A stretch of 64,000 nucleotides of DNA, taken from contig NC_026661.2 of NCBI RefSeq assembly GCF_000004075.3, positions 4,650,001 through 4,714,000 of the forward strand, written 5' to 3'. The translations under genes and the position numbers were made by a program. Shown here piece after piece: positions 1 to 20,955 of the stretch (the first letter of the stretch is position 1; the number at the start of each line of letters is the position of its first letter). The notes beneath the pieces are model-generated. The model was not told the DNA's origin. It did not search any database and saw nothing but the letters and a program-made list of their open reading frames with translations. The DNA is from Cucumis sativus (Eukaryota > Streptophyta > Magnoliopsida > Cucurbitales > Cucurbitaceae).

Positions 1-116
1 CTTAAATTTCTCGAAATCAAAATTCTAAGCTTAAGAATCACCTACAATCAGTTCATTTGTATCTATTTTACATTTACCCTCATACTGGTTCTTGAAACAT
101 ATTCATCTTTCTGCAG

Positions 117-188
117 ATGGATAATGAATTCTGTTTAACATTAAAGGACCTAGTGAAGAATTTGCAATCGACTTTGCGCTCGTTTTAA
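117..188 (+). CDS. Possible terminal coding exon of an upstream gene (partial)
   Basis: A pyrimidine-rich stretch ending in CTGCAG (111-116) looks like a splice acceptor. It is followed by one frame open for 23 codons to a TAA at 186-188; the other two frames stop almost at once. The peptide, with a stretch like KDLVKNLQSTLRS, looks like a helical C-terminus. I do not recognise the family, and the rest of the gene would lie to the left of the window. The exon could be chance. Confidence 0.3.
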   Translation: MDNEFCLTLKDLVKNLQSTLRSF

Positions 189-219
189 CAAGAAGATAGA
201 AGAATGCATTAAATAAGAT

Positions 220-246
220 CAGGAGCAGGAGCAGGAGCAGGAGCAG
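220..246. repeat. Short GGAGCA hexamer repeat
   Basis: About four head-to-tail copies of a GGAGCA-type hexamer lie just after the putative terminal exon. It is a simple sequence repeat of unknown significance. Confidence 0.7.
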
Positions 247-2073
247 CCCTTGTGCTACAACAAAATAAAATCAACCATAGACAAAACTTATCCCTTTCTA
301 AAACCATTATGTTTACAGGTCTGTGATGTTTCAACAAATTTGAACCAATAACCTTTCAAGCAAACCAGTTGTGAGATTCACATTTCAGGGTGGGGGTTTT
401 TCTTTTTCATTTTTGCATGTGAAACCATGTTCTGTTTGTCACCTACCTGTTTTTCATAGCTTGTTTGGAGGGTGTTTTTTTTTTCCATTGAAGATGTTGC
501 TCTAAAAGCAGCAAAATCTATGGATTCTTCTTCTTGGGTGTAGATGATGAAAAGGGGAAGTTGGTTTTTTTGAGTTTGTTAGTCAGATCAGGCCTTTGTT
601 GTTCATCTTTCTTCTATTTGTATTTGGTGTTTTAGAGGGCATTCATGGAAATGTATGAGCCTCTTTTTCAGTGAACTTTGGTTTGTAATGTCTCTTGTTT
701 TGAAGTGATGAAATAGTTTATAAACTTTGCTTCTTTCATTTTGTTACCAAACTACAGTTCTCTCTCTCTCTTCTTAATCACACATTTAGTCTCTTTCAAC
801 TTCTTTTTTTTCTTTACTATTAGTTTCCTACACATATAATATTAAGTTTATATAATTGACATACACTTAGAGGTTTGATCATCAGACCATAAATCAATAA
901 TTAAATTCATGTCACAATATACTATGCTATTTTTCTACATTAAATATGTAGTTATTATATACTACAATTGATCACAAATCTTGGCAATCTTTGTTCATTG
1001 GAAGAATGAGAGTCAACTTTGAAATCCTCTACCCTATATTCAGTTTCTTGAGTTATACACTTCCATATTTTAATAACAACAATTAAAAAAAAAAACTTAT
1101 TGTATACAATCATTAAGAAGAGACAGTAAGATTCATTGCTAATTAAAATTTAATTTTTCATATTCCAAGAATCTCACAAAACATTACATTTCATCAAAGA
1201 TTTGCTAAAACTTTGTAATATATTATCTTTAACATTTGATGAATTTAGATGTCTGTCTAATAAAAAAATGTTATTTGATTTTAAACTTTAATAAGAGATT
1301 CAAATATTTTCCTTTAATCCTTACATTTATCTATTAAATGACCCTACCAAATGAATTAACATTAAGTTTGATTCAACATCTCTTTCATTTAATTAAATAA
1401 GTATTTACTTTTATTTTTTATATACACGTTATTAAATTACAAAACACAAATATTTAAGTTCTACATTCAAACACATACATTAATTATTCTAAACATTTTG
1501 AATCCATACATTCAAATCCCAAATAATTAATATTTATATTCATCGAACAATATATACGATTCAAACGGTTCCTAAGATTTAAGCTATAGACAAAAAAACA
1601 AAAACAAAAAATTGAAATAGTTATCAAACAGGTTGATAGAATGATTAACTAATTTAACAATTTCCACTTTTAGGAAATAATTTTCCCACATCGAAGAGAA
1701 TTTAATTGTTAAAGTTCTTCTTATTAAGAAAGCTAAAATTTGCTTGGCACCTGTGGTGTTAGTGGACGTGAGGACCAATTGTTAGTCCACATATTTACCT
1801 ACGTGGTAATGCATGGGTGTGTCTACGGAGGGGAGGCTTAATTTGATTATGCTTATTCGTAGAATTCGACTTTATCAGAGCGGCACCTTTGTGTTACTTC
1901 TAAACGTATGGTGTTGCTATGTTCCAACCCTTTGGTTCATTAGTTGTATTCGGACGCCCTCTTGGTTCCTCACGACCACCCTTTTTCTTCAAGATTAGGA
2001 TTAAGTTCTACATGAGTTTGTTTTTAACTATTTTTTCAACACACTATTTTCCGAAACACTTCTTTAGATTTTT
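247..2073. other. AT-rich intergenic DNA, no gene seen
   Basis: No splice-consistent reading frame, RNA gene or clear transposon was found here. The first few hundred bases could be the 3' UTR of the upstream gene. The short open frames at 1584-1998 are low-complexity and unsupported. Confidence 0.5.
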
Positions 2074-2164
2074 GAATTTGTTTTAAATTTGTTTTAATTT
2101 TGATTTAAATTTGTTTTTAATTTGTTTCTAATTTGTTTTTAATTTGTTTTTAATTTGTTTTATT
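2074..2164. repeat. Degenerate TTAATTTGTTT tandem repeat
   Basis: Roughly eight imperfect copies of an 11-12 bp T-rich unit (TTAATTTGTTT and variants) end about 40 bp before the tRNA gene. This is a simple minisatellite. Confidence 0.75.
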
Positions 2165-2202
2165 ATTTAAAAATAAATAATTTGTTTTCTTCTTCAACAA
2201 CT

Positions 2203-2276
2203 GGTGTCGTGGTGTAGTTGGTTATCACGTCAGTCTAACACACTGAAGGTCTCCGGTTCGAGTCCGGGCGACGCCA
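2203..2276 (+). tRNA. tRNA-Val (AAC)
   Basis: This 74-nt gene folds as a complete cloverleaf. The acceptor stem GGTGTCG pairs with CGACGCC, allowing one G-U pair, and is followed by discriminator A. The anticodon stem is TCAGT/ACTGA with loop CTAACAC, giving anticodon AAC. The T arm carries the B box GGTTCGAGTCC. No intron is present and CCA is not encoded, as expected for a plant nuclear tRNA. Confidence 0.97.
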
Positions 2277-2282
2277 CTTTCC

Positions 2283-2287
2283 TTTTT
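2283..2287 (+). terminator. RNA polymerase III T-run terminator of tRNA-Val
   Basis: A run of five T residues lies 6 bp after the mature tRNA end, the usual Pol III stop signal. Confidence 0.75.
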
Positions 2288-2381
2288 CTTCCTCCATTTT
2301 TCTTTTTTCTAAATATTTCCAAACATAGTTTTATATTTATATTTTTATCATATCTATCGAAGGAAAACAAAACCATAAATT

Positions 2382-2389
2382 CCACGTGG
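2382..2389. promoter_or_regulatory. Palindromic G-box (CCACGTGG)
   Basis: A perfect CCACGTGG palindrome lies about 390 bp upstream of the TIN1 start codon. G-boxes bind plant bZIP and bHLH factors. It sits with a heat-shock-like and an ER-stress-like motif, so a stress role is plausible but inferred. Confidence 0.5.
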
Positions 2390-2439
2390 ATGAGAACCGC
2401 GACAAATGCGGACCGGAAAAGGTGGAGCCCACTAACTTT

Positions 2440-2452
2440 TTCAAGAAGCTTC
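2440..2452 (+). promoter_or_regulatory. Heat-shock-element-like motif
   Basis: The bases read TTC-nn-GAA-nn-TTC, three perfectly spaced inverted heat-shock modules, about 330 bp upstream of the TIN1 ATG. Such trimers bind heat-shock factors. Whether this one is active is not shown by sequence alone. Confidence 0.5.
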
Positions 2453-2520
2453 CAGAGAGAAAACGGAACGGAACGGAGCGGAATCCCTCGAAATAAAAAT
2501 GAAAATCCAACGGAAGAAAG

Positions 2521-2595
2521 CCAATACGGTGTCATCATCGCATCAGTTGCTCGATTCCTATTGGCTCATTCCTCCTTCGCTGTTCCACGTCATCG
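2521..2595 (+). promoter_or_regulatory. ER-stress (UPR) type motif cluster upstream of TIN1
   Basis: CCAAT (2521-2525), TCATCG (2535-2540), ATTGG (2560-2564) and CCACGTCATCG (2585-2595) cluster within 75 bp. CCACGTCATC is the right half of the plant ERSE/UPRE element of ER chaperone promoters recognised by bZIP28/bZIP60-type factors. Here ATTGG and CCACG are 20 bp apart rather than 1 or 9-10, so this is not a canonical ERSE. The cluster lies 35-110 bp upstream of the TATA box, a suitable place for control. Confidence 0.55.
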
Positions 2596-2627
2596 CTTCT
2601 CTAAATTCCTCCAATTTCTCCATTCTC

Positions 2628-2636
2628 TATATTTAA
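2628..2636 (+). promoter_or_regulatory. TATA box of the TIN1-like gene
   Basis: TATATTTAA lies about 150 bp before the ATG at 2780. That would place transcription start near 2660 and leave a CT-rich 5' UTR of about 120 nt. Confidence 0.6.
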
Positions 2637-2779
2637 TTTCATTCTCAATCAACCGACTCTCCCCATCTCCTTCCTTCCCGCTACATTCTTTCTCTTTAAC
2701 ATTTTCTCTCCGTATTTTTCATCCATTTTCAAGAGCTTTCACAATCCACGACGAATTGATCTCTGTTTCTGGTTTTCTT

Positions 2780-5663
2780 ATGGCTGCTCTTCCCAGATTT
2801 TTTCTCTCCACCCTTTTCTTGCTTCTGGTTCTTCGTCCTTCCTATGGAGCTCTCCATTCTTCCCCTCATCTCAACCCCACCAACCCCAAATCCGTTTCTG
2901 TCAGTAATTCTTTCTCTCATCAATCATCGTTTGTTTGTTTGTTTTTTTTTTTTAATTATTTTTATTTTTATTTTTATTTTGTGGGGTTTTGAGATTTTGA
3001 TATGTTTTTCTGTTTTGATTGAAGTTTTTGTTGGGTTTTTGTTTTTGAAGGATTTGGTTTTGTTGTTTTGGTGTCTCGTTTTGTATTCTTTGATGGGTCT
3101 GGCTATTTGATGCTTAGTTTGCAACTTTTGAGGATTTTTTTGGTGTTTGATTGGGTTTGTTCTTGTTATATTTTAAAGGATTTGATAATTTGTTTCTTCG
3201 TAGGTTTCTGATTTGATGCTTAATCTGTGGGGTTTTGATCATTTTCTGCTCACATTGTGTTGTTTGATTGTTTCTCTAACCAGCCAGTTGGGATTTTAAG
3301 GATTTGATTATTTTATTTTGTTTTTGTAAATGTTTGATTCCTCATGCTTTAATTTGTGGATTTTAGGGGTTTTGTTAGTTTTTCCTGCTTAGATTTTGGT
3401 GCTTTTATTGATGGGCTGGGTTTGTTGGCTTTTTGATGAATTGATAATGGTTTTCTAAATCTCTGATTATTGATGCTTAATTTTGATACTAACATTGTGG
3501 CGTTTTTATTGTTTTCTTTGGACAGTCGATTGAAACTATGGTAGATGGGTTTACAAAGGATTTAAAAGAGATGATTAAGAAGGGATTAGGGTTTAGGGGC
3601 GACGATTTCAAGGTCTCAGGAGTTGATTTCAAAGATGCAAGGGCTGGGAATTCGGTTGCTTATGAGTTTGAGTTGGAGATTGATAACCAAGTTTTTCCAT
3701 TGAAGTTTTTGGAAAATGCCCAACAATGGGACTATGTGGATTTGCCTATTTTTCAGATTCAAGAGCAGTCTCAAGACGAAGATAAAAATTTGTTGGCCCA
3801 GAAACGTAATCTGGGCTCTGATTTACCTGTTTTGGCTCCCTTTCAGCTCGCCGGTCCGATGGAGCTCTGGATTCAGGATGCTGATGGCATGAGGGTCTCA
3901 TTGCCAGTGAGTATCTTTTTATTGCTTTTGATTTGGTTCATTATAAGTTTCTACTGACTTGATAGACTGCTGCAATTTGTGCTTTTGGGGGTTTAATGGT
4001 TGATGATGATACCCATTGGATTAGAATTTGTCTTCTATTTTGTTTATCTGCGTATGTATCTTGATGAAGGCTTTAGGTTTGGAAGTTCTGGTTTGAAAAT
4101 GTAGGTGGTTTACTATAGTTTAGTCTAGTTTTTCATGTTTATTGACTCCACTTTTGAAAGTTCTGCTTTAGACTTAACTTTGCATAAAAAGATCATCGCT
4201 GTTACTGATTTGATGACAAAAATAGGTAGCCTTTTGTTCATTGGCTTGATCCATTGACACACTAATATGAAAAATTGTTTGAAGCCATATGGATTAGATG
4301 TTGTCTTGAACCTTAATTAAAAGATGTTAACGTACGTGCAAGTTAATTTGAAACGTACCAAAACTAGCGCAACAGTATTTGCTATGCATTCCTTCCTTGA
4401 GGTTGGAGTTTCAAATCTCCACATCTCACTTATCGTACTGAAGGAAAAAAAAAGAATTTCTTTTCGGACAGGTGTTAAAATTAACTTTTAGTACTTTACA
4501 TGATCTTTTAAACTTCAAGGACATAGTTATACAACCTACCTCTTGTTCAAGTAATGTCGTTTCTATTTGTACTAGTTATACAACCTACCTCTTGTTCAAG
4601 TAATGTTGTTTCTATTTGTACTAGTTATACAACCTACCTCTTGTTCAAGTAATGTCGTTTCTATTTGTACTAGTTATACAACCTACCTCTTGTTCAAGTA
4701 ATGTCGTTTCTATTTGTACTATGGATGTTAATTCATATATCTTTGTAATACATAAACTCTGCTGCCTTCTTGTGCCCTTTTGAATGTAATTGTACATATA
4801 GCAAGCATGAAAGGCTATTTTCTAAGCTGTTGCTTTGTTTGCCACTGAATTTGCAGCACGATGTAGATGCTGGTGTCTTGAGAAAGGTTGTTCTGGCAGA
4901 TGGAGCAGTTGTTACTGTAACTGGTGCTAGATCTGTTAGCCTTCGTCAACCGCTCGATCTTCCTCTCCCTCTCAATCGAACAACCCCTGGTTTCGCTACG
5001 GGTCTGGTAGCCTTAGCCGAACAACTCCGCCACACATCTCGATCTCAATCAACCCCACTCCTTTCTCTTCGCATAGTTGGTCCTACCTCCCTCACTTCAT
5101 CTCCTAGCTCCACCAACAAGCTCAAGCTCAAGCGCCTAGCCCCTGGCCTAGTCGAACTCTCATCCCCCATCCAAGCCATCCAGTCTCCTTCCCCAGTCCA
5201 TCTTCAACCCAATGCCCCAACCATTCTAACACCAAAGGCATTCACAACACTGTGGCCAATCACCTCCATCAACGGCTCGAACTCGAAATTAGTTGGTTTC
5301 GAGACACTTCTGACATCTCTTCTCGGCCCGAAAGCAAATGGAAAGGGCTCATTCAAGCTGTTAAAGGCCAATGTCTCCGCTCAAACAACTGTGAGGATTG
5401 GTTTTGGTGTTGACAAGAAGTTGGAAGAAGGAGATGGGATCGACATGGAGGGATTTCCTGAATGGAGGACTAAACCTGAGGCTGTGAGGTTGCATTTCGA
5501 GGTTCTGGCAACGCTCGATGGTGAACGGATCATACCAGAGAGGGTAATGCAGGTTAAGCCAGTGATAGTTGAGGACACGGTTGCACCTAATGTGCTACTT
5601 GGGAACGTGAGTATGTCAAAAACTCCTATTGTTTATACCCCATCTGATCCTTTCACCCTGTAG
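2780..5663 (+). CDS. TIN1: Tunicamycin-induced-1 (TIN1)-like secretory-pathway protein
   Basis: Three phase-0 exons (2780-2899, 3526-3906, 4857-5663) encode 435 residues. Residues 1-23 form a signal peptide (hydrophobic FFLSTLFLLLVL, then SYG). The rest has no membrane span, so the mature protein is predicted luminal or secreted. Conserved-looking blocks include GLGFRGDDFKVSGVDFKDAR, LAPFQLAGPMELWIQD and HDVDAGVLRKVVLADG. From memory these match the plant-specific family of Arabidopsis TIN1, an ER-stress-induced protein linked to pollen surface formation; the molecular activity is unknown. The promoter holds G-box, heat-shock-like and UPR-like motifs, in keeping with stress induction. Intron 2 contains a 49-bp tandem repeat. 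The last codons and 3' UTR were copied twice downstream (10.2 and 17.0 kb) as part of the SURNod19 array. The gene converges on SURNod19 copy 1, with 421 bp between the stop codons. Exon structure is firm; the name rests on recalled similarity. Confidence 0.78.
4525..4720. repeat. 49-bp minisatellite, four units, in TIN1 intron 2
   Basis: Four consecutive 49-bp units begin at 4525, 4574, 4623 and 4672, starting AGTTATACAACCTACCTCTT. Units differ by about one base (TGTTG for TGTCG in unit 2). They lie wholly inside intron 2. Near-identity points to recent expansion and probable length polymorphism. Confidence 0.95.
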
Positions 5664-6084
5664 TTGGTATCTGCATGTTTTGGTTGTCTTTTGGGGTCAG
5701 TGCCCTTTTATGGTTAAAAGTGTAAAAAATATATATTGAGTGAATATAGAGAGAAGTTGAGTACTGTAAGAACTACTGATATTCAAAGTTTCTCTACAAA
5801 ATTTTATTTTATTATTTCTTTTTAGGTTATTTGTTTTCTTTTTTTCAAAGGTTGATGGTTTTTGTACAACTCTTTTTTATGTGACTTAACTTAATGCAAT
5901 TGAAATACATTTTTACTATGAAAAGATATTCAGACACAGTGGAATCTTATATTATAACATTATACAAACACACAAACGTTTTAAGTTCAATACCATACCA
6001 TAGGTCTAAATTAGTACATGACAGAGTTCATTATCGTTATCTTATTCATAGACCCGTCAATTGGAATATAATAATATAAAGATT

Positions 6085-8306
6085 TTACATGGTGATCTTC
6101 TTCTTACGATCATTAGCAAGTTGTTTGAGTGGTTCCATTTGAATGATTGAGTTTGGTAATTTTTGTGCGACCATAATATGAAAGAGACCCATAACTCCAA
6201 TGTGAGTTTGAGAAGGATGATATTTGGATATCAGAGTTAACATTTCTTTATTGTTGAGTTTGACTGAGCCTGGCTTTGGATAACAAGTTGACATCCCAAC
6301 CACATAACCCTTCTCATTCCCTATTTCACTTCCATTTCCATATATGGGAGATGAAGAACATAACTCTCTTCCATCCTAATAAATGCATAATGATAGACAT
6401 ATTATACACATATTTAAGAAAACTTCAATTACATATAATTCCGATCATACATACATAAGAAAGATTTCAATTTAGATTGTTTTTACCTATAAGTAGAGGC
6501 TTGAAAAAGTATTTATAATTAAACAGATTTTCATGGCACAGTTTAGTAAACATTTTGTTTCTGGTTTTTGATTTTTGAAAATTTAGCTTTATTTTCTCTT
6601 AATGCTCTTAGTATCTTTCTTAAGTACATATTTAAAAGTTATTTGACACGAAATTGAAAGTTCAACTACATTAAAGTTTCAAAAAAATATGTAATTTAAT
6701 TTTATAAGAAATGAAGAGACCAATTATTAAGTGAAGAAAAAAATACCTGTCCATAAAGCACTGAACCAAGACCACCAACATGGAGATGAGCCATTCCATA
6801 TATGATATAGCCACTACTTGGAGACAATAGCCTCACCATTTTTGTAGCATTACATTCATCACCAACCTTGTTTGTGGAGCAAGTCCCTCTTACATTATAC
6901 TCCACCTGTACACAAACCATCAAATGATATACATGTATATATATAGCAAATTATGGAAGTAGTTTGACTTACAAGACAATTATGTTGTTGTGGAGCTCCT
7001 GTTGAGTCCATCAATGGCTTCCAAGTATCTGTGATATCAAAAATGTAAACCTTAAGAGGAATAACAAGATCATCATCCCAATCCACCCACTTGACTGTAT
7101 ATCTAGCATACAAGTTCCTTTGTTGATCATCTCCTAATTCATTATCATACCCTTTTTTCACTTTACATTGGGTCTGATCATAACAACATCTTAAACCTCC
7201 AATATAATCATCTTCCAAAGCCATTCCCAACCCATCTTTTGTAACATTATACAAATGACGTTTGCATTCAATACATCCAATTCTATCTTCAACACCTCTT
7301 GTATCAATGGCATGAATATTAAGAACCCATTTCTCTTCATACCCTAAAGGGACTTCCTTTTCATTACCAACTTCTATTCCATATGGGTGTGGAAGAAATG
7401 AGGATGTTTTTCTTGAATCTGCCCCTGTCCCAAAGAATTGTGGAAGTGCATGTTTTTGACATACTCCACTGTTTCCTGCTATTATGAAATTTGGTTCTTG
7501 GAGTTGAGTGAAGGAAGTGTTGATGTGTGGATCTTTTGTGTCTTTGCGTTGGTAATACCTGTTGTTGTTGCACAAAAATATGTTATTTTAGATCGGTAAA
7601 AATATAAATGTTTCTCAAATAATCAATTAAACATGTATATACTCACTACTAATATCACTGCTAATACAGTCAATCTAAACTCGTATACTTCATAACTAAC
7701 TCCATTTCAAACAAATTATTTAATACTCCGCATTGCAAGCAAACTTCCTGAATTAGTGAGGTAAAATACTCTTAATTAGACACCAAAAACGTATAGATCA
7801 TTTGACTTGACTCAGATTATAATAACAACAAAAACTATTACGACTAACTTATTCTCTGGAAAATCTTATTACAATAATGTTATTCATAAAAGAGATGTGC
7901 CTGATCAACAGTAATGAGTTATGTTAAGAAATATTCGATTGCCTAGAAAAGAGAGAGAGAAATGGTATAGACAGTAAATAAAACAATAAGAGTAATAATA
8001 GTACCTTAGAATTCCCCAATGGTGAAGATAAGTTTCAAAGAGAGGGATGGGATTGTCTTCTTCATCTACGACTTCAACATCAAAACTTTTGATAGCAATA
8101 TGGCCTTCGGGAAAGTTGGTATTATAGAAGAATCTCTCCACTACATGGCCAGGTTTTAAAGTGAAGAATGGAGTCATATAAGTCTTTGTTTTTATGACTT
8201 GATGATCGTTCTTGTTGTTTATTACAACCCCTTCCAAATATGGTATCATAATTCCTATGGAAGAGAGCAGTAGCAACCACCGAAAACATTGGTGATGCTT
8301 CAACAT
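6085..8306 (-). CDS. SURNod19-family protein, copy 1 (intact)
   Basis: Four exons on the minus strand (8306-8005, 7558-6973, 6905-6747, 6375-6085) give 445 residues. Residues 1-27 look like a signal peptide, so the protein is probably secreted or in the endomembrane lumen. Motifs recalled from the stress up-regulated Nod 19 family (Pfam PF07712) are YLHHWGI (93-99), CIECKRHLYNVTKDG, LRCCYDQTQC, GMAHLHVGGLGS (334-344) and MSTCYPKPGS. The biochemical role of the family is not settled; it was named for stress-raised and nodule transcripts. The start is the first ATG after a good acceptor (TTTTGCAG, 8323-8324), implying a spliced noncoding leader from about 9.4 kb. This is the only copy of the three without a disabling change. 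It faces TIN1 tail to tail. Confidence 0.88.
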
Positions 8307-8322
8307 TTTTCTTTGTTTGATT

Positions 8323-9457
8323 CTGCAAAAAAAATATGAACCGTAATACGGTTTAAATAATCGAAAAAAAGATGAACAAATATTCAGTGACGTGACAGAT
8401 TTTGAGTGAGAGTATAGTTGGTATTACTGTATAATATAAATGGAATGATGATATAATGATAATATTGGGAGTAGGGAATAAAGGAAGTGGGTGGAAAAGA
8501 GAGATTTTCTTAACATAAGAATATGGTTATAATTTCTCTGCCTATTTTTATAATCTAAATTGTCACCTAATTCTTTTTAAATTAATTAAGGGACAAAACT
8601 CACCTAATTTAATTTAAAGTACTAAATTAAAATATTTTCTAGATTTGGATGCTAGCTTTTGAAATATAAGAGATTTTTAGCATCTCATCAAAATCACTAA
8701 TTACACACTTTTAATGACTAACAAAAAAAGCGCGTAAAGTTTTGACTTCTAGGGTACGATCTTGAAAATTTTGAAAGTAAAAAAACCATGATCTTATTTT
8801 GTTGAGGCAAGATTTACAACACCCAAAAATCCTTTTCATGTAATTAGATCAAAGCATACCGAATCACAACATTATTATACTAATATACTTTGAATTAGGT
8901 AAAAACGAATTAGGTAAAAAGGTCTAATTCTTAAGACACCATTAAAAAGTGAATTTTGAATGAGTTGATGCTCCAAATCACTCACTCTCAAACTTTCTTC
9001 GATCATCTCATGCTCACACTCTAAAAACCAAATGATCGAAACAATATATATAGTTTTCAAACTTTTTAAAACAACAATTTAACTAATTCTTAAAACAACA
9101 GTGAATTGTGAATAGTAAGCTCTACGGTCGACTAAATGTGAACGTTAATAAAAAGAGTATTCTCAACAGTGAAAAAAAAGACTTCTTAGTATCAACAAAT
9201 GGTATATATGTATATGCTTCATTAATATTGGATAATCATGCCTCTAACCTATAACACATATGTAACTCAAAATCATGTCTACATCAATATTAACATATTG
9301 ATGGATAGAAGATGAATTAAGAAATTACTAACCGTAGAGATTCTTGAAGAAGAGAGGAAGAAGAAGAAGAAGAACAAGACGGATGCAAATAATAGAAAGA
9401 GCTTTTGATTTGATTGGCAATGGCGGATTTGATTATTTCTCAATCTATATTTTATCG
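8323..9457 (-). promoter_or_regulatory. Predicted leader exon, 5' UTR intron and core promoter of SURNod19 copy 1
   Basis: Read on the minus strand, a TATA-like ATAAAATATAG lies at about 9445-9455. It is followed by a CT-rich leader ending in CTACG|GTTAGT (donor at 9332-9331). The matching acceptor TTTTTTTTGCAG lies 16 bp before the copy 1 ATG. This gives a 5' UTR intron of about 1.0 kb. The leader is also recognisable in unit 2 (16.4 kb), which supports it, but no transcript evidence was available. Confidence 0.55.
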
Positions 9458-9489
9458 ATGGCTTAGCTGGAAGACCATTTAACATAAAC

Positions 9490-10198
9490 TTAGCTTTTTT
9501 AAAAGATCCAAAATATAATTATTATTAATGCTAAAAATAATGTCATAATAAAGACATTAAACAACAAGATTATATTATTCTAATAATTAATTATATGTTA
9601 AAAAAGTTCTCAAACATTTTGGTGTTCACTTTGTTGTTTGGTTCTTATCATGACTTCTTCTCTTTTTTTTTCTTCTTTTTGGTATTATCTAAAAATAGTT
9701 CTAAAATAAATAGAAAAATTTCCAACTTAATAATAAATTAAAATTATAAAGTTTGTAGGGAAGACAAAAAAACAAAAACAGCTCAAAACACCATTTTTTT
9801 TAAATAAAGAATGCAATTAATTAAAAAAAATCAAAACAAAGAAACAAAAATGCAGAAATATATATAAAATTGAAAAAAAGTAAAACATAAATAATTAAAT
9901 TGTTAACTTTTAGTGTAAAAAGTTAAGGAGAAGATATATATTTCTTTTGGTAAAGGATCCAGAAAGATTCACCTAATTCATATACTAAAAGGATTCATTA
10001 TTTTTAATAGATGATATATATATATATATTGCACAAGTTGCATTGCATTTTTGTATATATAAATATTGGTGGACCAAATCAAATAGATTCAATTAATTCG
10101 GTTCGATATTTGAATAAGTTTTATCATAAAATGAAACTATCTTCAGCTTAGTTCTACTTTTTATTTATACAAATTAAATTTTTAAGAAACAAAACTAG
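9490..10198. other. Upstream flank of SURNod19 copy 1, no gene seen
   Basis: AT-rich DNA whose counterpart is at about 16.6-16.98 kb in unit 2, shared up to the junction with the next TIN1 tail. It may hold distal promoter elements. No coding frame was found. Confidence 0.5.
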
Positions 10199-10251
10199 AG
10201 AACGTGAGTATGTCTATTGCTTATACCTCATCTGATCCATTCACCCTGTAG
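10199..10251 (+). pseudogene. TIN1 3'-end fragment, copy 2
   Basis: It carries the final codons of TIN1 (NVSMS ... YTSSDPFTL stop) with an in-frame 9-bp loss relative to the parent, followed by recognisable TIN1 3' UTR. There is no upstream TIN1 sequence, so it cannot make a TIN1 protein. It may still supply polyadenylation signals. Confidence 0.9.
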
Positions 10252-10683
10252 TTAATATCTACAAGTTTTGGTTGTCTTTTGGGATCAACGCCCTTTTGTA
10301 GCCAAAGTGTAAAAAAATATATATCGAATGAGTATAGAGAAGTCGAGTATGGTAGGAACTACTGATATTCAAAGTTTCTCTACAAAAATTTATTTTATTA
10401 TTTCTTTTTAGGTTATTTGTTAAATTGTTTTCTTTTTTAAAGTTTGGTTGTTTTAGTACAACTCTCTTTTCTATGTATCTTAACTTAATGCAACTGACAT
10501 ACATTTTTACTATGAGAAGATATTCAAACACACTGTACAATCTTATATTATAATTACATTATACAAACACACAAACTTTTATACCATAGTGTCAAACTAT
10601 AGGTATAAATTAGTAGATGACAGAGTTCATTATCGTCATCTTCTTCATAGACCCACCAATTGTAATATAATAATGTAAAGATT

Positions 10684-12729
10684 TTACATGGTGATCTTCT
10701 TTTTACGATCATCAGCAAGTTGTTTGAGTGGTTCCATTTGAATGATTGAGTTTGGTAACTTTTGTGCAACCATAATATGAAAGAAACCCATAACTCCAAT
10801 GTGAGTTTAAGAAGGATGATATTTGGATATCATAGTTAACATTTCTTTATTGTTGATTTTGACAGAGCCTGGCTTTGGATAACAAGTTGACATCCCAACC
10901 ACATACCCCTTTTCATTCCCTATTTCACTTCCATTTCCATATATGGGAGATGAAGAACATAGATCTCTTCCATCCTAATAAATGTATAAATACATATAAT
11001 TCACAAACTTAATAAAACTTCTGTCACGTATAATTCGGTTAAATTATAAATTTAGTTTTTTACCTTTAGATTGAAAACTTCAAAAAGTATCTATAATTAA
11101 ACAAACACTGTGCAGTAAACATTTTGTTTCTGGTTTTTTGTTTTTAAAAATTAAACTTATTTTCTCTAATTTTTTAAATTAGTGTATTTTTTAAGTACAT
11201 ATCTAAAGGTTATTTGACACAAAATTGAAATATAAAATTAAAAGATCAACTACGTATATTTTTTACACACATCAAAGTTTAAAAAATGTGTAATTTAATT
11301 TTATAAGGAATGAAGAGACCAATTATTAAGATAAACAAGAAAAAAATACCTGTCCATAAAGCACTGAACCAAGACCACCAACATGGAGATGGGCCATTCC
11401 ATATATGATATAGCCACTACTTGGAGACAATAACCTCACCATTTTTGTAGCATTACATTCATCACCAACCTTGTTTGTGGAGCAAGTCCCTCCTACATTA
11501 TACTCCACCTATACACAAACCATCAAATATTTAATATACATGATGTGTATATATATAGCAAATGGATAAATAGTTGACTTACAAGACAATTATGTTGTTG
11601 AGGAGCTCCTGTTGAGTCCATCAATGGCTTCCAAGTGTCTGTGATATCAAAAATATAAACCTTAAGAGGAATAACAAGATCATCATCCCAATCCACCCAC
11701 TTGACTGTATATCTAACATACAAATTCCTTTGTTGATCATCTCCTAACTTATTTTCATACCCTTTTTTCACTTTACATTGAGTTTGATCATAACAACATC
11801 TTAAACCTCCAATATAATCATCTTCCAAAGCCATTCCCAACCCATCTTTTGTAACATTATACAAATGACGTTTACATTCAATACATCCAATTCTATCTTC
11901 AACGCCTCTTGTATCAATGGCATGAATATTAAGAACCCATTTCTCTTCGTACCCTAAAGGGACTTCCTTTTCATTACCAACTTCTATTCCATATGGGTGT
12001 GGAAGAAATGAGGATGTTTTTCTTGACTCTGCACCTGTCCCAAAGAAATGTGGAAGTGCATGTTTTTGACATACTCCATTGTTTCCTGCTACTATGAAAT
12101 TTGGTTCGTGGAGTTGAGTGAAGGAAGTGTTGATGTTTGGATCTTTTGAGTCTTTGTGTTGGTAATACCTGTTGTTACGTTGCACAAAAATATGTTATTT
12201 TAGATCAGGAATATATAATATAAATGTTTCTCACTCTACTAATATCGATCACTACTAAATATAGTCAACCTAAACTATTACAACTAACTTATTCTCCTGA
12301 TAATCGTCAGTAAAATACTGTTATTCATAAAGAAGATGTGTCTGATATCAACTGTAATGAGTTATGTTAAGAAATGTTGGATTGCCTAGAGAAGCGAGAG
12401 AGAGATAAATTGTAACGATAATAGTACCTTGTTATTCCCCAATGGTGAAGATAAGTTTCAAAGAGAGGGATGGGATTGTCTTCTTCATCTACGACTTCAA
12501 TATCAAAACTTTTGATAGCAATATGACCTTTGGGAAAGTTGGTATTATAGAAGAATCTCTCCACTACATGGCCAGGTTTTAAAGTGAAGAATGGAGTCAT
12601 ATAAGTCTTTGTTCTTATGACTTGCTGATCGTTCTTCTTGTTTATTACAACCCCTTCCAAATATGGTATCATAATTCCTATGGAAGAGAGTAGTAGCAAC
12701 CACCAAAAACAATGGTGATGCTTCAACAT
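10684..12729 (-). pseudogene. SURNod19-family gene, copy 2 (premature stop in last exon)
   Basis: The four-exon layout matches copy 1 exactly (12729-12428, 12168-11583, 11508-11350, 10974 onward). The exon lengths 302, 586 and 159 are identical. In exon 4 the codon that is CAA (Gln405) in copy 1 is TAA here (10807-10809), so translation ends at 404 residues instead of 445. The reading frame beyond the stop is otherwise kept to 10684. Compared with copies 1 and 3 it has its own substitutions (QQVIR, FPKGH, FDIEV, GITRYY). Its 5' leader acceptor seems lost: the GCAG before the ATG has become ACAT. The expected leader exon is pushed about 3.7 kb away by insertions. A truncated product is possible, but loss of function is more likely. 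Confidence 0.82.
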
Positions 12730-12954
12730 TTTGCTATTTGTTTTTGATTATGTGAAAAAGAATTGAATCGTAATACGGTTTAAATAACCAAAGAAGAAAA
12801 AGGGACAAATATTTAGTGATGTGACAGATTTTGAATGAGATTATTTGAATTTGCTATAAATGGAATGATGATAATGACAATTGTGGGGGTAGGAAATAAA
12901 GGAAGTGGGTGTGGAAAAGATAGAATTTTTTCTTTAAAAAAATAAGAATATGAT

Positions 12955-13215
12955 TATTCGATACAAATTTTGAATTGAATGACAAAAACATTTAGAAAAA
13001 ACTGGCTCATGGCACGTAATTTTTTTGTATATGACACAAAATTAAACGGTAATCATAGGGCTATCGAAAGACCATCCGACAGTAATTATCGTGTTGTCGA
13101 CTTTTAAATTTGTTACTTTGTAATTTAGAAGATGTAGTGACATTGACCATATCATCATTTTTTTTTTCTATTTGCGCTAGAAACCCTATTTTTTATTTTA
13201 ATTCTAAAAATGGAA
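12955..13215. repeat. Unit-2-specific insertion (about 260 bp)
   Basis: Units 1 and 2 align on both sides (AAGAATATG... before, TTTTATAATCTAAA... after), but unit 2 carries about 260 extra bases. I found no coding frame or clear inverted ends. It may be a small nonautonomous element. Confidence 0.5.
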
Positions 13216-14495
13216 ACCCTCTATCTACTTTTATAATCTAAACTGTCACTTAATTCTTTTTAAATTAATTAAGGCACATAAAAAGAAATAGACATTTTCA
13301 ACAATAGTAGAGTAAATTAAAATATTTACTAAAATTTTGGATTCTATCGATTATATAGAAATTGATAACTTCTATAACGGTAGAGATATCAATGTTTATT
13401 ATTTATAGAATCTTAAATTTTACGAGTTATTATTTTTTTTATAATTTTTGATAATTTTGAAATCTAGAGATTACGTTTGAAATGATGTAGCTATTAAAAA
13501 GGTTACTTTTCTATTAGAATATAGTAAAACATCACTATCCAATCGTGATAGACAAAATTGATGAACTCGGTTGGATGCTTCGTGTCCCAAAATTGAACTT
13601 CATAGACGAAAAAGATGAATATTTAATTAAAAAAGAAAATTAAGAAACAAATAACATTTTAAAAAAACAAAACACAAAATGAATAAAAGAAGATAAATTA
13701 AAACTCATACCTCATATAAGATAGATGAACGAATGTTGATTTTGAGATGAAATTCTATACTATAATTAAAATAGTGGAGACAAAGCAGGGGTGGACAAGT
13801 GTGTGCAAGGGGAGGCCTTCGAATTGGTGAAGATAAGGAGCAATTTTGTTGAGAGTGACGGGGAGGGCCATGGAGACTCATTGTCATGGGGTGGAGAGTG
13901 ATAGATTTTTTTTTGCTTTGGGGGCCATTGAACTTGTGGTCATGGAGAGGAGAGTGATAGATTTCTTTTAGTTTGAGGATGAGATTCAACCCTTTTTTGG
14001 TCACCTATAATGATAATTCGAGTAAAAGTATATTTTTGGTTTCGATTAAACACTCTAGTCCTTCGAGTTTGTAGAATAGTTCTAAATGGTCTTTCAGTTC
14101 ATTTTTGTTAGTCGTTCTCTAACACAAAATTGTGTTTACGGAATTTAATTTTATTAGGTGGTTTTTTATTTTTCTATTTCATTTTTTTTGTTGGGTATGT
14201 TTTTCCTTTCACTCTCCCTTTTTCCTACCTTTTATCTCTTTTCCATTTCTCTCGTAGTCTCCCTTTCTCCTTTCTCGCAACTCACTTTGAACTGTCCCGA
14301 GGACGTGACATCTCCATCAATAAGAATTTTGTTCAAGCACTCATTTACGAGGTGGGAAATAGATTTAAATATGGACAAAGACATTCCTTTTAGCTTCTCC
14401 ATCCTTACTTTTGGTCTCCCTGGTCTTTGGAAAAAACGTTAAGAAATTGTATGAAAAGACGGAGTGGACCAATTTTAAGCTTTCTTTACATTTTA

Positions 14496-14777
14496 GATAG
14501 GGAAATTGCAATTGATGACTATTTTAGCAATAATAATTAAGGATATAGCAACATTTTAAAAAAATTGCAAATATAGCAAAACTATCACTGATAGACTTGT
14601 ATCACTGATAGACTTCATATGATATATTAGTGATTGACCAATATTTGCAACATGGTCTATCAGTGATAGACTTATATCATTGATAGAATTTGACAAATTT
14701 TGCTATATTTGCAAAATTTTTAAAATTGTGTTATATACTTAATTAATTTGAATTTAATTGCTAAATTTGCAACTATC
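14496..14777. mobile_element. MITE with long (about 75 bp) terminal inverted repeats
   Basis: The left arm runs from GATAG (14496-14500) to GCAAATATAGCAAAA (about 14566-14581). The right arm is its degenerate inverse, from TTTTGCTATATTTGC (about 14697) to CTATC (14773-14777). Between them lie repeats of the CTATCACTGATAGAC type. No transposase frame is present. Related sequence occurs at 20578-20955. Confidence 0.75.
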
Positions 14778-14885
14778 TCGTTAAGATTTTTTTATAAAAA
14801 GACGCAGGTGAGGTGAATTTTCGGAAAGTTTTTCACTATGGAACTTTTCTTGATGTTTAAAAAACGTTAAGAGCTATGTACTTTT

Positions 14886-14910
14886 ACTTGACGTTTTTAA
14901 AATGTCAAGT
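14886..14910. repeat. 25-bp imperfect palindrome
   Basis: ACTTGACGTTTT and AAAATGTCAAGT form near-perfect inverted arms (one mismatch) around a single base. It may be the residue of a transposon end. Confidence 0.6.
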
Positions 14911-15159
14911 AATATCCCTTCAAATGATTGTTTACTTATTATACGATCTGCTAACTTTCCATACAATAATTTAATTTCATACTCTACAAAATACTCGTAA
15001 ACTTACTTTTATTAAATAAATATTCAATCTCCAACCTGATATCCAACCTAACAAAAAAAAAAAAACCAAAATTTTCAACTCAACTCATATTTTTAAACTA
15101 ACACAACCTAACTTATATAATATGAGATGGGAAGGTTGTCGGGTTATTCGAGTTGGACC

Positions 15160-15771
15160 TAAACTCGTACTTGCAACTCTTTTGTTCACCCTGTCTCCAT
15201 CTCTCTCGACTTCTCTTTCAATCTTCGTCTTCGACTCTCTCGCCGAATTGCAGGCGCAAGAATAAACCCTTCTCCGAATTGGGTTTGTATAGCCCATGAG
15301 GGAAGGGTTTCACGTTTGTTTCTCACCCTTTGCTTTGTTCCTCATGACGAGGTTTTGTTTTACAACATTCCTCATATGAAAATTCCATTCACCACTGGCT
15401 CATGGCTTCTTCTTCAATCTTCTTCTCCTCGTTCTGTTCTGTTCTTATTCTTCTCCTTTGTGGCTTTCATTCTCCAGGGTTTCAACCGATTTAGTTAGTA
15501 ATATTATCCTTTTTAATTATATTTTTCTGTTTTGATTATGATGATCATTTTGACCTCAAATATTTTTGTAGGGTTTTTAATTGTAGCTTTTGGTGAAGTA
15601 GGATTGAAGTTTTTAACCATGATGACAATGGCCATTGAAGATGAAGATTCTATGGCTCTTTTACCATTTGGAGGATCAGGCTTTAGTGTTGGAAGCTTCA
15701 TGATCCGACTTCCTCAATGCAGTGGCCCTCATCGGCCAAGTAACTCTTTCCAACTTCATCTTAGATTATAA
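15160..15771 (+). other. Gene-like segment of unknown origin inside the unit 2 insertion
   Basis: Base composition is less AT-rich than the surroundings. A CT-rich, leader-like stretch is followed by short frames at 15316-15498 and 15532-15771. The second encodes a peptide with MTMAIEDEDSMALLPFGGSG and ends RPSNSFQLHLRL. I do not recognise it. It could be a captured 5' gene fragment, a decayed gene or chance. No complete exon chain was found. Confidence 0.3.
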
Positions 15772-16410
15772 CATTTGATACTAAAATGTCAATATGGGCG
15801 TTTCTCTATTAGGGAATAGTAACGTTTTATGCATATCTCCTGGCATCAAGATCAGTGTTTCTTCATTAACTAAATTATAAGAACTACAGCTACAATACAA
15901 GGACAAAAAATATTACTAATTCTTAGGTTACAAATATATTTAATATTTTGCAATATACTATGTATATATGTATATAGATTCATTTGTTTCAATTTTCTAA
16001 TATATATGTAAAAGACTTATCAAATATTTATATTATTTGACACAAACATCAAAGTTTTGATTTGTTACATTTGTTACCGTTTGTATGCAATGCATACAAT
16101 TTGAAATAGTTTGTATCCAAGAATTTGTTATAGCCTATATAATTAATTCTTTTCATCCATGGCGATGAAAAAAACAAATGTGAATAATAAACTCACAGTC
16201 AATCCAAATGTGAATGTCAACAAAAAGAGTATTTCTCGATGGTATAAAAAAATGACTTTTAATTAGTATGAACAAATGGTATGCATAGTTTATTAATCCT
16301 CTAATCTCTAATAACCTCAAACACATGCATGAAACTCAAAATCATGTCTATATTATATATTAACACATTGATAGATAGATATATACTTAGATGAATTAAC
16401 AAATTACTAA

Positions 16411-16560
16411 CTGTAGAGATTCTGAAGAAAGAGGAAGTAGAAGTAGCAGAAGAAGAAAGAAAAAGAAGGAGGAGGATGCAAAGATAGAAAGAGCTTTGAA
16501 TTGATTGGCAATGGAGGATTTGGCTTCAATCTATATTATATTATATTATTATATATCATT
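16411..16560 (-). promoter_or_regulatory. Leader/promoter remnant of SURNod19 copy 2
   Basis: It is collinear with the copy 1 leader: TA-rich box, CT-rich leader, and donor CTACA|GTTAGT at about 16411. It is now separated from copy 2 by the insertion block, and its partner acceptor near 12745 is mutated. Productive splicing to copy 2 is therefore doubtful. Confidence 0.5.
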
Positions 16561-16978
16561 TATGGCTTAGATGGAAAACCATTTAACAAAAACTTAGCCT
16601 TTTTAAAAGTTCCAAAATAATAATTGTTAATGCTAAAAATAATGTCATAATAGAAACATTAAACATCAAGATAATTACATTATAATTGAAAAAAAAGTAA
16701 GACATAAATAATCAAATTGTTGACTTTTAGTGTAAAAAGTTAAGGAGAAGATATATATTTCTTTTGGTAAAGGATCCATAAGGATTCACCTAATTCATAT
16801 ACTAAAAGGATTCATTATTATTAATGGATGATATATATATATATTGCACAAGTTGCACCAAACCAAATAGATTCAGTTTTGTTCGATATTTGAATAAGTT
16901 TTACCATAAAATGAGACTATCTTCAGCTTAATTTTATTTCTGATTTATTCAAATTAAATTTTTAAGAAACAAAACTAA

Positions 16979-17040
16979 GGAACGTGAGTATGTCAAAAAC
17001 TCCTATTGTTTATACCTCATCTGATCCATTCACCCTGTAG
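16979..17040 (+). pseudogene. TIN1 3'-end fragment, copy 3
   Basis: It holds the last 20 or so TIN1 codons with one clear amino-acid change (YTSSDPF for YTPSDPF), the stop codon and 3' UTR, but no upstream TIN1 sequence. Confidence 0.92.
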
Positions 17041-17520
17041 TTAGTATCTGTAGGTTTTGTTATCGTTTGGGGTCAGTACCCTTTTGTGGTTAAAATGTAA
17101 AAATTATATATTAAATGAATATAGAGAGAAGTCGAGTACTATAAGAACTACTGATGATATCCAAAGTTTCTCTACGAAATTTTATTTTATTAGTTTTCTT
17201 TAGGCTATTTGTTAAATTACTTTTGAATTATTTTCTTTGAAAGGTTGGTGGTATTTCTACAACAACGTAACTCTCTTTTCTATGTGTCTTAACTTAATGC
17301 TAAATACATTTTTACTATGAGAAGATATTAAACATATTGTACAATCTTATATTATAACATTATACAAACACACAAACTTTTATGCCATAGTATCATTCAA
17401 GTTCAGTACTCTTAGACTTATAACAAAACCAAACCATAGGTCTAAATTAGTAGATGACAGAGTTCATTATCGTCATCTTCTTCATAGACCCACCAATTGT
17501 AATATAATAATGTAAAGATT

Positions 17521-19759
17521 TTACATGATGATCTTCTTCTTACGATCATCAGCAAGTTGTTTGAGTGGTTCCATTTGAATGATTGAGTTTGGTAACTTTT
17601 GTGCAACCATAATATGAAAGAAACCCATAACTCCAATGTGAGTTTGAGAAGGATGATATTTGGATATCAGAGTTAACATTTCTTTATTGTTGATTTTGAC
17701 AGAGCCTGGCTTTGGATAACAAGTTGACATCTCAACCACATACCCCTTTTCATTCCCTATTTCACTTCCATTTTCCATATATGGGAGATGAAGAACATAG
17801 ATCTCTTCCATCCTAATAAATGCATAAATACATATTATTCACAAATTTAATAAAACTTGGTTAAATTATAAGTTTGGTTTCTTTACTTCTAGACTTTTTT
17901 TTTTTTTTTTTTTTTTGCCTATAAACTGAATTTTCAAAAAGCATCTATAATTAAACAAATTTCTATGACAACAGTGCAGTAAACCTTTCGTTTTTGGTTT
18001 TTGGTTTTTGAAAATTAAGCTTATTTTCTCTCCAATAGTTAGTATGTTTTTTAAATACATATCTAAAAGTTATTTCAGAAATATAAAATTAAAAGTTCAA
18101 CTAAGTATATTTTTTACCCATCAAAGTTAAAAAAATGTGTAATTTTAATTTTCTAAGAAATGAAGAGAACATTTTTTAAGATAAATGAGAAAAAAATACC
18201 TGTCCATAAAGCACTGAACCAAGACCACCAACATGGAGATGAGCCATTCCATATATGATATAGCCACTACTTGGAGACAATAGCCTCACCATTTTTGTAG
18301 CATTACATTCATCACCAACCTTGTTTGTGGAGCAAGTCCCTCTTACATTATACTCCACCTGTACACAAACCATCAAATGATATACATGTATATATATAGC
18401 AAATTATGGAAGTAGTTTGACTTACAAGACAATTATGTTGTTGTGGAGCTCCTGTTGAGTCCATCAATGGCTTCCAAGTATCTGTGATATCAAAAATGTA
18501 AACCTTAAGAGGAATAACAAGATCATCATCCCAATCCACCCACTTGGCTGTATATCTAGCATACAAGTTCCTTTGTTGATCATCTCCTAATTCATTATCA
18601 TACCCTTTTTTCACTTTACATTGGGTCTGATCATAACAACATCTTAAACCTCCAACATAATCATCTTCCAAAGCCATTCCCAACCCATCTTTTGTAACAT
18701 TATACAAATGACGTTTGCATTCAATACATCCAATTCTATCTTCAACACCTCTTGTATCAATGGCATGAATATTAAGAACCCATTTCTCTTCATACCCTAA
18801 AGGGACTTCCTTTTCATTACCAACTTCTATTCCATATGGGTGTGGAAGAAATGAGGATGTTTTTCTTGAATCTGCCCCTGTCCCAAAGAATTGTGGAAGT
18901 GCATGTTTTTGACATACTCCACTGTTTCCTGCTATTATGAAATTTGGTTCTTGGAGTTGAGTGAAGGAAGTGTTGGTGTGTGGATCTTTTGTGTCTTTGT
19001 GTTGGTAATACCTGTTGTTGTTGCACAAAAATATGTTATTTTAGATCAGGAAAAATATAAATGTTTCTCAAATAATCAATTAAACATGTATATACTCACT
19101 ACTAATATCACTGCTAATACAGTCAACCTAAACTCATATACTTCATAACTAACTCCATTTCAAACAAATTATTTAATACTCCGCATTGCAAGCAAACTTC
19201 CTGAATTAGTGAGGTAAAATACTCTTAATTAGACACCAAAAACGTATAGATCATTTGACTTGACTCAGATTATAATAACAACAAAAACTATTACGACTAA
19301 CTTATTCTCTGGAAAATCTTATTACAATAATGTTATTCATAAAAGAGATGTGCCTGATCAACAGTAATGAGTTATGTTAAGAAATATTCGATTGCCTAGA
19401 AAAGAGAGAGAGAAATGGTATAGACAGTAAATAAAACAATAAGAGTAATAATAGTACCTTAGAATTCCCCAATGGTGAAGATAAGTTTCAAAGAGAGGGA
19501 TGGGATTGTCTTCTTCATCTACGACTTCAACATCAAAACTTTTGATAGCAATATGGCCTTCGGGAAAGTTGGTATTATAGAAGAATCTCTCCACTACATG
19601 GCCAGGTTTTAAAGTGAAGAATGGAGTCATATAAGTCTTTGTTTTTATGACTTGATGATCGTTTTTCTTGTTTATTACAACCCCTTCCAAATATGGTATC
19701 ATAATTCCTATGGAGAAGAGTAATAGGAACCACCATAAACATTGGTGATGCTTCAACAT
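17521..19759 (-). pseudogene. SURNod19-family gene, copy 3 (frameshift in last exon)
   Basis: Exons match copies 1 and 2 in position and length (19759-19458, 19011-18426, 18358-18200, 17812 onward). In exon 4 a run of three T (plus strand) is four here (TCCATTTTCC at about 17767-17776). The frame shifts after IYG and stops at 17762-17764, giving about 365 residues and losing the MSTCYPKPGS end. The downstream frame is otherwise open to 17521. Exon 2, intron 1 and most of exon 1 are almost identical to copy 1. Exon 4 instead shares copy 2 residues (KINNKE, GFFHIM, LADD), so the gene looks mosaic. An upstream in-frame ATG at 19837 exists but falls before the conserved acceptor. The normal leader exon is absent. 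Probably nonfunctional. Confidence 0.82.
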
Positions 19760-20577
19760 TTCTGCTTTGTTTGATTCTGCAAAAAAAAAAGTTTGAACCG
19801 TAATACGGTTTAAATAACCAAAGAAAAAAGAGGGCAAATGTTTAGTGACAGATTTTGAATTAGATCAGTATTTGGAATCACTATATAATATAAATGGAAT
19901 GATGATATAATGATAATTGGGGGTAGGGAATAAAGGAAGTGGGTGGAAAAGAGAGATTTTCTTAACATAAGAATATGGTTATAATTTCTATGCCTACTTT
20001 AATTTAAAGAACTAAATTAAAATATTTTCTAGATTTGGATGCTAGCTTTTCAAAAATAAAAGATTTTTAGCATGTCATCAAAATCAGTGATTACACATTT
20101 TTAATGACTATCCAAAAAGCGCGTAAAGTTTTGACTACTAGGATATGATCTTAAAAATTTTGAAAGTAAAAAACTATGATCTTATTTTGTTGAGGCAAGA
20201 TTTACAACACCCAAAAATCCTTTTCATGTAATTAGATCAAATCATACCGAATCACAACGTCATTATACTAATACACTTATTGAATTAGGTAAAAAGATCT
20301 AATTCTTAAGACACTATTAAAAGTGAATTTTGAATGAGTTGATGCTCCAAATCACTCACTCTCAAACTTTCTTCCATCATCCCATGCTCACACTCTAAAA
20401 ACCAAATGATCGAAACTATATGTATAGTCTCCAAACTTCTTAAAACAACAATTTAACTAATTCTTAAAACAACAGTGAATTGTGAATAGTAAGCTCTACG
20501 GTCAACCAAATGTGAACGTTAATAAAAAGAGTATTCTCGACAGTAAAAGACTTCTTAGTATCAACAAATGGTATATA

Positions 20578-20706
20578 TGTAAGTCTATTATCGATAGACC
20601 ATGTTACAAATATTGGTCTATCACTGATAGTTTTGTTATATTTGCAATTTTTTAAAAATTTTGCTGTATCCTTAATTATTATTGTAATCAATTGCAATTT
20701 TCCTAT
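20578..20706. mobile_element. Partial MITE at the broken end of unit 3
   Basis: The central CTATCACTGATAG motif and one inverted arm (TTTTGTTATATTTGCAATTT to CAATTGCAATTTTCC) match the reverse complement of the left arm of the element at 14496. The other arm is missing at the junction with unit 3. Confidence 0.7.
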
Positions 20707-20751
20707 ATTGTAATCAGATATATTCGCAAATTTTTCATTAGATTAAAAAAA

Positions 20752-20955
20752 ATTAAATATATAGCAACATTTTAAAAAATTTATAAATATAGTAAAATTT
20801 GTTAAATTCTATCCATTATAGAAATTTATCACCGATAAATCATGTTATAAATATTGGTCTATCACTAATAGATCATACGAGTCTATCAAATTTTTTAAAA
20901 TGTTATTATATACTTAATTATTTTAAACCTAATTTTCTAAATTTGTATTTACATC
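20752..20955. mobile_element. Degenerate second MITE copy
   Basis: ATATAGCAACATTTTAAAAA at the left, a centre with GGTCTATCACTAATAGA, and an A/T-rich inverse arm at the right mark a decayed member of the same family next to the partial copy. Confidence 0.55.

Follow-up and report, generated by a model that had tools for sequence, protein, structure and literature searches.

Three tandem units in cucumber that each join a SURNod19 copy to the end of the neighbouring gene, with one full-length copy and a probable conversion tract between the outer two

Self-comparison of a 64,000-nucleotide stretch of the cucumber genome (C7:4650001-4714000, here called the window) identified three tandem units (Table 1). 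Each has its left end at an identical position within the last coding exon of an upstream gene, and runs through the tail of that gene to an oppositely oriented SURNod19 copy. This confirmed the array reported in a preliminary description of this DNA, the interpretation of which was upheld in part, with its individual claims going different ways. The element that is new here is a tract of near-identity between the outer SURNod19 copies, apparently the product of a more recent sequence exchange. We consider it probable that one illegitimate duplication was followed by homologous amplification, then by decay and then by conversion between the outer copies, and that copy 1 alone is fully working and the tails are passive. 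The array would be a compact record of tandem formation, of the neighbour fragments that this leaves behind, of decay and of partial homogenisation.

The self-comparison matches pair 5602-8551 with 16979-20003 (90.4%), 5597-7617 with 10194-12233 (87.0%) and 8603-9212 with 19993-20581 (91.3%). All three units start with GAACGTG, at 5603, 10200 and 16980, which bears out the common breakpoint proposed inside the last coding exon. Alignment showed no difference in breakpoint between units, the start and the internal joints being the same. The text of the two internal joints matches save for single bases, TTTTTAAGAAACAAAACTA followed by two bases and GAACGTGAGTATGT, and is unlike the parental text to the left of the unit 1 start, GTGCTACTTGGGAACGTGAG. 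The array thus has the same joint at each internal junction, as a tandem duplication that includes part of a neighbouring gene should. The single start sequence given for all units held for two of them: GGAACGTGAG is exact in units 1 and 3 (C7:4655602 and C7:4666979), but unit 2 reads AGAACGTGAG. The distance between this start and the last base of the stop codon is 61 nt in units 1 and 3 but 52 nt in unit 2, owing to a 9-bp loss within the interval. The right end of the array had been placed at 20578, within 3 bp of the 20581 found here.

A genome search (226,625,048 bases, 88 contigs) with the 4,597-bp unit 1, by a method that skips simple repeats and very common words, gave 38 matches from 21 candidates, every one of which was scored. 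The tail falls within query positions 1-530, a part covered solely by the three window copies. The 10-base unit-start motif has 112 exact matches in the genome (38 forward, 74 reverse), so the extended alignment and not the motif is the evidence for the shared start.

The upstream gene, a putative TIN1 (tunicamycin induced 1), was described as whole in its parental position, and this is borne out by an open spliced model of 435 aa that terminates in GNVSMSKTPIVYTPSDPFTL and a stop codon; other splice choices also fit. The predicted protein matched no Pfam family at E 0.001. Four head-to-tail copies of a 49-bp unit lie at 4524-4719 in the second intron.

Table 1. Features of the SURNod19 array and its surroundings (window positions).
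Feature	Position	Strand	Remarks
Upstream gene	2780..5663	+	exons 2780-2899, 3526-3906, 4857-5663; 435 aa; open spliced model
Unit 1	5603..10199		upstream-gene tail, SURNod19 copy 1 and DNA upstream of copy 1; from self-comparison
Unit 2	10200..16979		other DNA at about 13347-16175 replaces the equivalent of 8655-9103
Unit 3	16980..20581		without the equivalent of 9213-10199
SURNod19 copy 1	6085..8306	-	exons 8306-8005, 7558-6973, 6905-6747, 6375-6085; 445 aa, full length
SURNod19 copy 2	10684..12729	-	last 41 codons lost to the stop codon 10809-10807; 404 aa remain
SURNod19 copy 3	17521..19759	-	frame shifted by one extra base in exon 4; 365 aa remain; stop ends at 17762
Orphan coding tail, unit 2	10200..10251	+	9-bp deletion
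Orphan coding tail, unit 3	16980..17040	+	reads NVSMSKTPIVYTSSDPFTL, then stop
Putative gene-conversion tract, copy 1 side	6735..8210		8/1476 mismatches to 18188-19663
Putative gene-conversion tract, copy 3 side	18188..19663		partner of 6735-8210
Candidate 5'-UTR intron, copy 1	8323..9332	-	GT/AG-like signals read by eye
Candidate non-coding first exon, copy 1	to about 9420	-	from splice-like signals in units 1 and 2
Putative TATA-like sequence, copy 1	near 9445-9455	-	by eye
High-copy repeat in unit 2	14490..14777		MITE-like, judged from copy number and length
High-copy repeat family, right end of unit 3	20570..20945		169 matches, 40 scored of 2009 candidates

The units are not equal, contrary to the earlier picture: unit 2 has about 2.8 kb of other DNA, and unit 3 lacks part of the upstream region. 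Unit 2 tracks unit 1 to 12957, has a short match at 13219-13346, passes into the other DNA and resumes at 16176. This extra DNA is partly MITE-like; its repeat gave 3225 first-look candidates, of which 40 were scored, namely the window itself and 39 others at 90-96%. Within the same insert, 15257-15877 is 81% like C1:27905768-27906238 and 77% like C7:4737689, and may be a gene fragment or a low-copy element. The match of unit 3 to unit 1 ends at 20581, where it meets a high-copy repeat whose family matches lie mostly between query positions 89-137 and 410-466. In the rest of the window to the right of unit 3, the matches listed for the equivalents of 9213-10199 were all short and weak: the best scored 38 bits with the unit 1 version and 34 bits with that of unit 2, and none of those listed within 3 kb of 20582 was better than E 0.036.

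Both orphan tails that had been proposed were found, at 10200 and 16980. The accompanying suggestion, that they act as polyadenylation or antisense sequence for the SURNod19 copies, found no direct support. The non-coding part of the tail differs by p 0.14-0.15 in all pairs of units, slightly below to equal to the unconverted introns (0.15-0.22). Since it diverges nearly like these introns, no new role for the tail is supported, and the orphan tails are most likely passive by-products of the duplication.

It is improbable that the tails were instead retained to provide the SURNod19 copies with working 3' ends or antisense sequence. On the SURNod19 strand, AATAAA begins 272 and 277 nt after the full-length stop in unit 1, 285 and 290 nt in unit 2, and 330 and 335 nt in unit 3; in every unit it falls in the interval that separates the SURNod19 stop from the start of the unit. 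However, none of these signals is in the coding remnant, and because the parental unit has them too, a tail could be used as a 3' end of the ordinary, inherited kind; the tails may contain just such SURNod19 3' ends, as in the parent. Of the 52 comparable sites in the coding remnant itself 3 are variable, compared with 70 of 319 in the stretch that follows (Fisher p 0.004); for units 2 and 3 the counts are 1/52 and 49/319 (p 0.007). These tests treat sites as independent and have few of them. This is not predicted by passivity and would speak against full neutrality of the remnant, with the reservation that the sites are few and one orphan has a 9-bp loss. Unit 1 is moreover under coding constraint in this comparison, and short-range conversion or chance could also account for the low divergence. 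Units 2 and 3 agree against unit 1 at two of the three variable sites of the coding tail.

The SURNod19 genes are oriented opposite to the tails, as stated previously. Three copies are indeed present, but the claim of a triplicated gene does not extend to three complete genes, as two of the three are truncated. All three exceed the curated Pfam cut-off of 25 bits for the SURNod19 family (PF07712), with scores of 536.1, 511.8 and 438 bits for copies 1, 2 and 3. A full-length domain is found in copy 1 alone (positions 2-376 of 377); coverage ends at 358 in copy 2, in which codon 405 is the premature stop, and at 319 in copy 3. The extra base of copy 3 sits in a run of A, and this one-base frameshift could be a sequencing error.

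A second SURNod19 cluster is located at C1:2522528-2536616 (loci L009-L011, L016, L018, L020, L024 and L025); it comprises at least three long copies as well as decayed pieces that contain several stops. Three exon-4 matches in this cluster run uninterrupted by a stop to profile position 376 or 377, and copy 1 therefore has the length of the family. Two of these relatives were also aligned.

Over exons 1-3, dN/dS is 0.33 for copies 1 and 2 and for copies 2 and 3, and 0.58 for copies 1 and 3, the last based on 13 changes. Values near 0.33 indicate that constraint acted on the copies during part of their history. The sole fully working SURNod19 gene of the array is probably copy 1. Copies 2 and 3 are predicted to have lost function; the truncated copies could still make protein. 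Counting three SURNod19 genes at this locus would probably overstate the number of working copies.

The copy 1 protein has His-His, N-[IV]-H-A and AHxH motifs (residues 95-96, 183 and 336-338) that may resemble those of copper type II monooxygenases. One of four aligned proteins has a different residue at the first H of AHxH. Neither copy 1 nor a four-sequence profile matched any of 177,635 distinct PDB sequences at E <= 10, and Pfam at E <= 10 returned the SURNod19 family only, leaving the likeness as a lead.

Upstream of the coding sequence, the donor of the candidate 5'-UTR intron is kept in unit 2, and the acceptor-like TTTGCAG of unit 1 reads TTCACAT there. TTTGCAG was also found upstream of the start codon in both C1 relatives inspected (L010 and L011). 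The segment absent from unit 3 spans the candidate non-coding first exon and the TATA-like sequence. Copies 1 and 3 have a second TATA-like stretch near the start codon, so this loss would not necessarily silence copy 3.

Divergence between the units is a mosaic. Copies 1 and 3 share a tract with 8 mismatches and no gaps in 1476 bp, spanning exons 2 and 3, two introns and roughly two thirds of exon 1. In the flanks, mismatches between these two units number 143/1100 and 62/900 (205/2000, about 10%), counts that exclude two 100-column border bins with 5 and 2 mismatches. The borders of the tract were picked after the data had been seen, and its Fisher value is descriptive only. Selection on the protein fails to explain the tract because two whole introns are included, with p of 0.000 and 0.012 between units 1 and 3 against 0.215 and 0.164 between units 1 and 2. 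The longest run of polymorphic sites at which units 1 and 3 agree is 32 of 345, a length reached in none of 10,000 shuffles (shuffle maximum 19). A high-identity tract that includes introns, lies between diverged flanks and exceeds chance has the features of interlocus gene conversion. The tract links the outer copies and leaves out the middle one, and gene conversion skipping the middle copy appears to be its best explanation. It stops before exon 4, the site of the copy 3 lesion. Exon sites polarised with the two C1 relatives did not settle which copy was donor and which recipient.

Other stretches show other groupings. Two-against-one sites group units 2 and 3 in exon 4 and the 3' UTR (18/27) and, more weakly, in intron 3 (38/81). 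From exon 3 to the 5' flank they favour units 1 and 3, weakly so in exon 1 (9/18) and at 34 of 51 sites in the 5' flank. The non-coding tail, formerly the 3' UTR of the upstream gene, is star-like, with 22, 25 and 21 sites and no pair favoured. Trees of the SURNod19 copies accordingly vary with the part used. The longest run of agreement between units 2 and 3 is 7 sites, reached in 285 of 10,000 shuffles, none of which had as high a segment score; for units 1 and 2 the longest run is 4, reached in 2,764, and the segment score was reached in 153. Because sites shared by units 2 and 3 are also clustered, and those shared by units 1 and 2 weakly so, more than one exchange is possible, giving a mosaic over more than one stretch.

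Could unit 3 simply be a younger copy of unit 1, with no gene conversion? The 5' flank groups these two units (p 0.085, against 0.217 and 0.193 for the other pairs), as this would predict. However, a copy of the whole unit would be close throughout, whereas units 1 and 3 differ on either side of the tract at the counts given above, and exon 4 with the 3' UTR groups units 2 and 3; we regard this explanation as very unlikely. Also very unlikely is that the array, or its near-identical tract, is an assembly artefact: a single assembly is concerned, near-identity extends over 1.5 kb in the tract and the copy 3 frameshift falls in a homopolymer run, but a false duplication would not produce the p of 0.04-0.22 and the many private indels found between unit pairs in non-coding segments outside the tract, and the cucumber v3 assembly, which this genome presumably is, was made from SMRT reads (sub-read N50 10.8 kb) corrected with Illumina data (PMC6582320, in excerpt).

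The shared joints, the truncations and the divergence mosaic are features of the DNA as it stands, and from them we infer an order of events in which conversion caused the mosaic. In an illegitimate event, a segment with its left end in the last coding exon of the upstream gene and its right end upstream of the convergent SURNod19 gene would have been duplicated in tandem. Unequal homologous recombination between the two repeats would then have added a third unit, copying the same joint; the presence of this joint at both internal junctions points to an illegitimate duplication followed by homologous amplification. The leftmost unit would have kept the whole upstream gene and the remaining units its tail only, because the left breakpoint lay inside that gene. 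Copy 2 would have decayed by losing its C-terminal 41 codons and by gaining, in the region upstream of it, about 2.8 kb of DNA that contains repeats, and copy 3 by losing the far upstream region and shifting frame. Later, copies 1 and 3 would have exchanged the 1.5-kb tract by gene conversion. Against a single history, the site patterns yield no one tree, the non-coding tail being star-like and the 5' flank grouping units 1 and 3; and since more than one exchange is possible, they do not fix the order of the second event.

If plant DNA accumulates 6.5e-9 to 1.5e-8 substitutions per site per year, the larger non-coding divergences would correspond roughly to several to about 20 million years. 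Set against a split of C. hystrix and cucumber about 4.5 million years ago (PMC7917098, in excerpt), this age suggests that the array may be common to relatives of cucumber.

In Arabidopsis NOD19 is membrane-associated and its loss reduces potyvirus infection, and removal of its last 43 residues moves the interaction with potyvirus P1 to the nucleus and cytosol (PMC10326430, in excerpt). As copy 2 is without its last 41 residues, truncated copies could by analogy be expressed and act as NOD19 forms of altered location, a reading to which we give little credence. If it were true, one locus would supply both full-length and shortened NOD19, with conversion between the outer copies partly homogenising the array, and expression of the truncated copies would be relevant to the as yet unsettled part that NOD19 plays in infection by potyviruses. 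Bean Nod19 is copper-responsive and cleaved under miR398 (PMC3882225, in excerpt). A search of the SURNod19 copies with a mature miR398 sequence found no such complementary site, the best having 8-9 mismatches of 21; 20 shuffles of the copy 1 stretch gave best sites with 7-9 mismatches, like the real sequence.

In a survey of literature on SURNod19, cucumber stress up-regulated Nod 19 and TIN1, covering titles and abstract openings with supplements outside its scope, none named this array. Similar arrangements are known elsewhere. Soybean Rhg1, in excerpted accounts, is likewise a tandem unit with gene pieces at its edges, but is about 31 kb long with four genes, present once in susceptible and 2-10 times in resistant lines, whereas the cucumber unit is 4.6 kb with one whole gene, is diverged and decayed, and is known from one assembly. 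In Drosophila Sdic, too, every repeat carries a flanking-gene remnant, an AnxB10-like presumed pseudogene, the copies differ at their 3' ends and gene conversion is common, as it appears to have occurred in cucumber; unlike the cucumber array, in which no chimera was seen and two of three copies are truncated, Sdic is a chimeric new gene for which positive selection has been reported, and 31 of 31 annotated copies have coding potential (PMC7475035, in excerpt). The copy number variation at Arabidopsis AT3G18530-AT3G18535 is also a plant tandem copy change with direct-repeat recombination and sequence conversion, but is polymorphic between accessions (PMC5101643, in excerpt), whereas the cucumber units have reached the non-coding divergence given above. 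The cucumber array is a smaller example of the arrangement seen at Rhg1 and Sdic, an ordinary but well-preserved tandem duplication.

Two further features were observed around the locus. A tRNA-Val (AAC) lies at 2203-2277, shortly before the upstream gene, and the next long open frame to the right of the array (23511-26114) encodes 867 aa with leucine-rich repeats and a kinase-like end, as read from its sequence.
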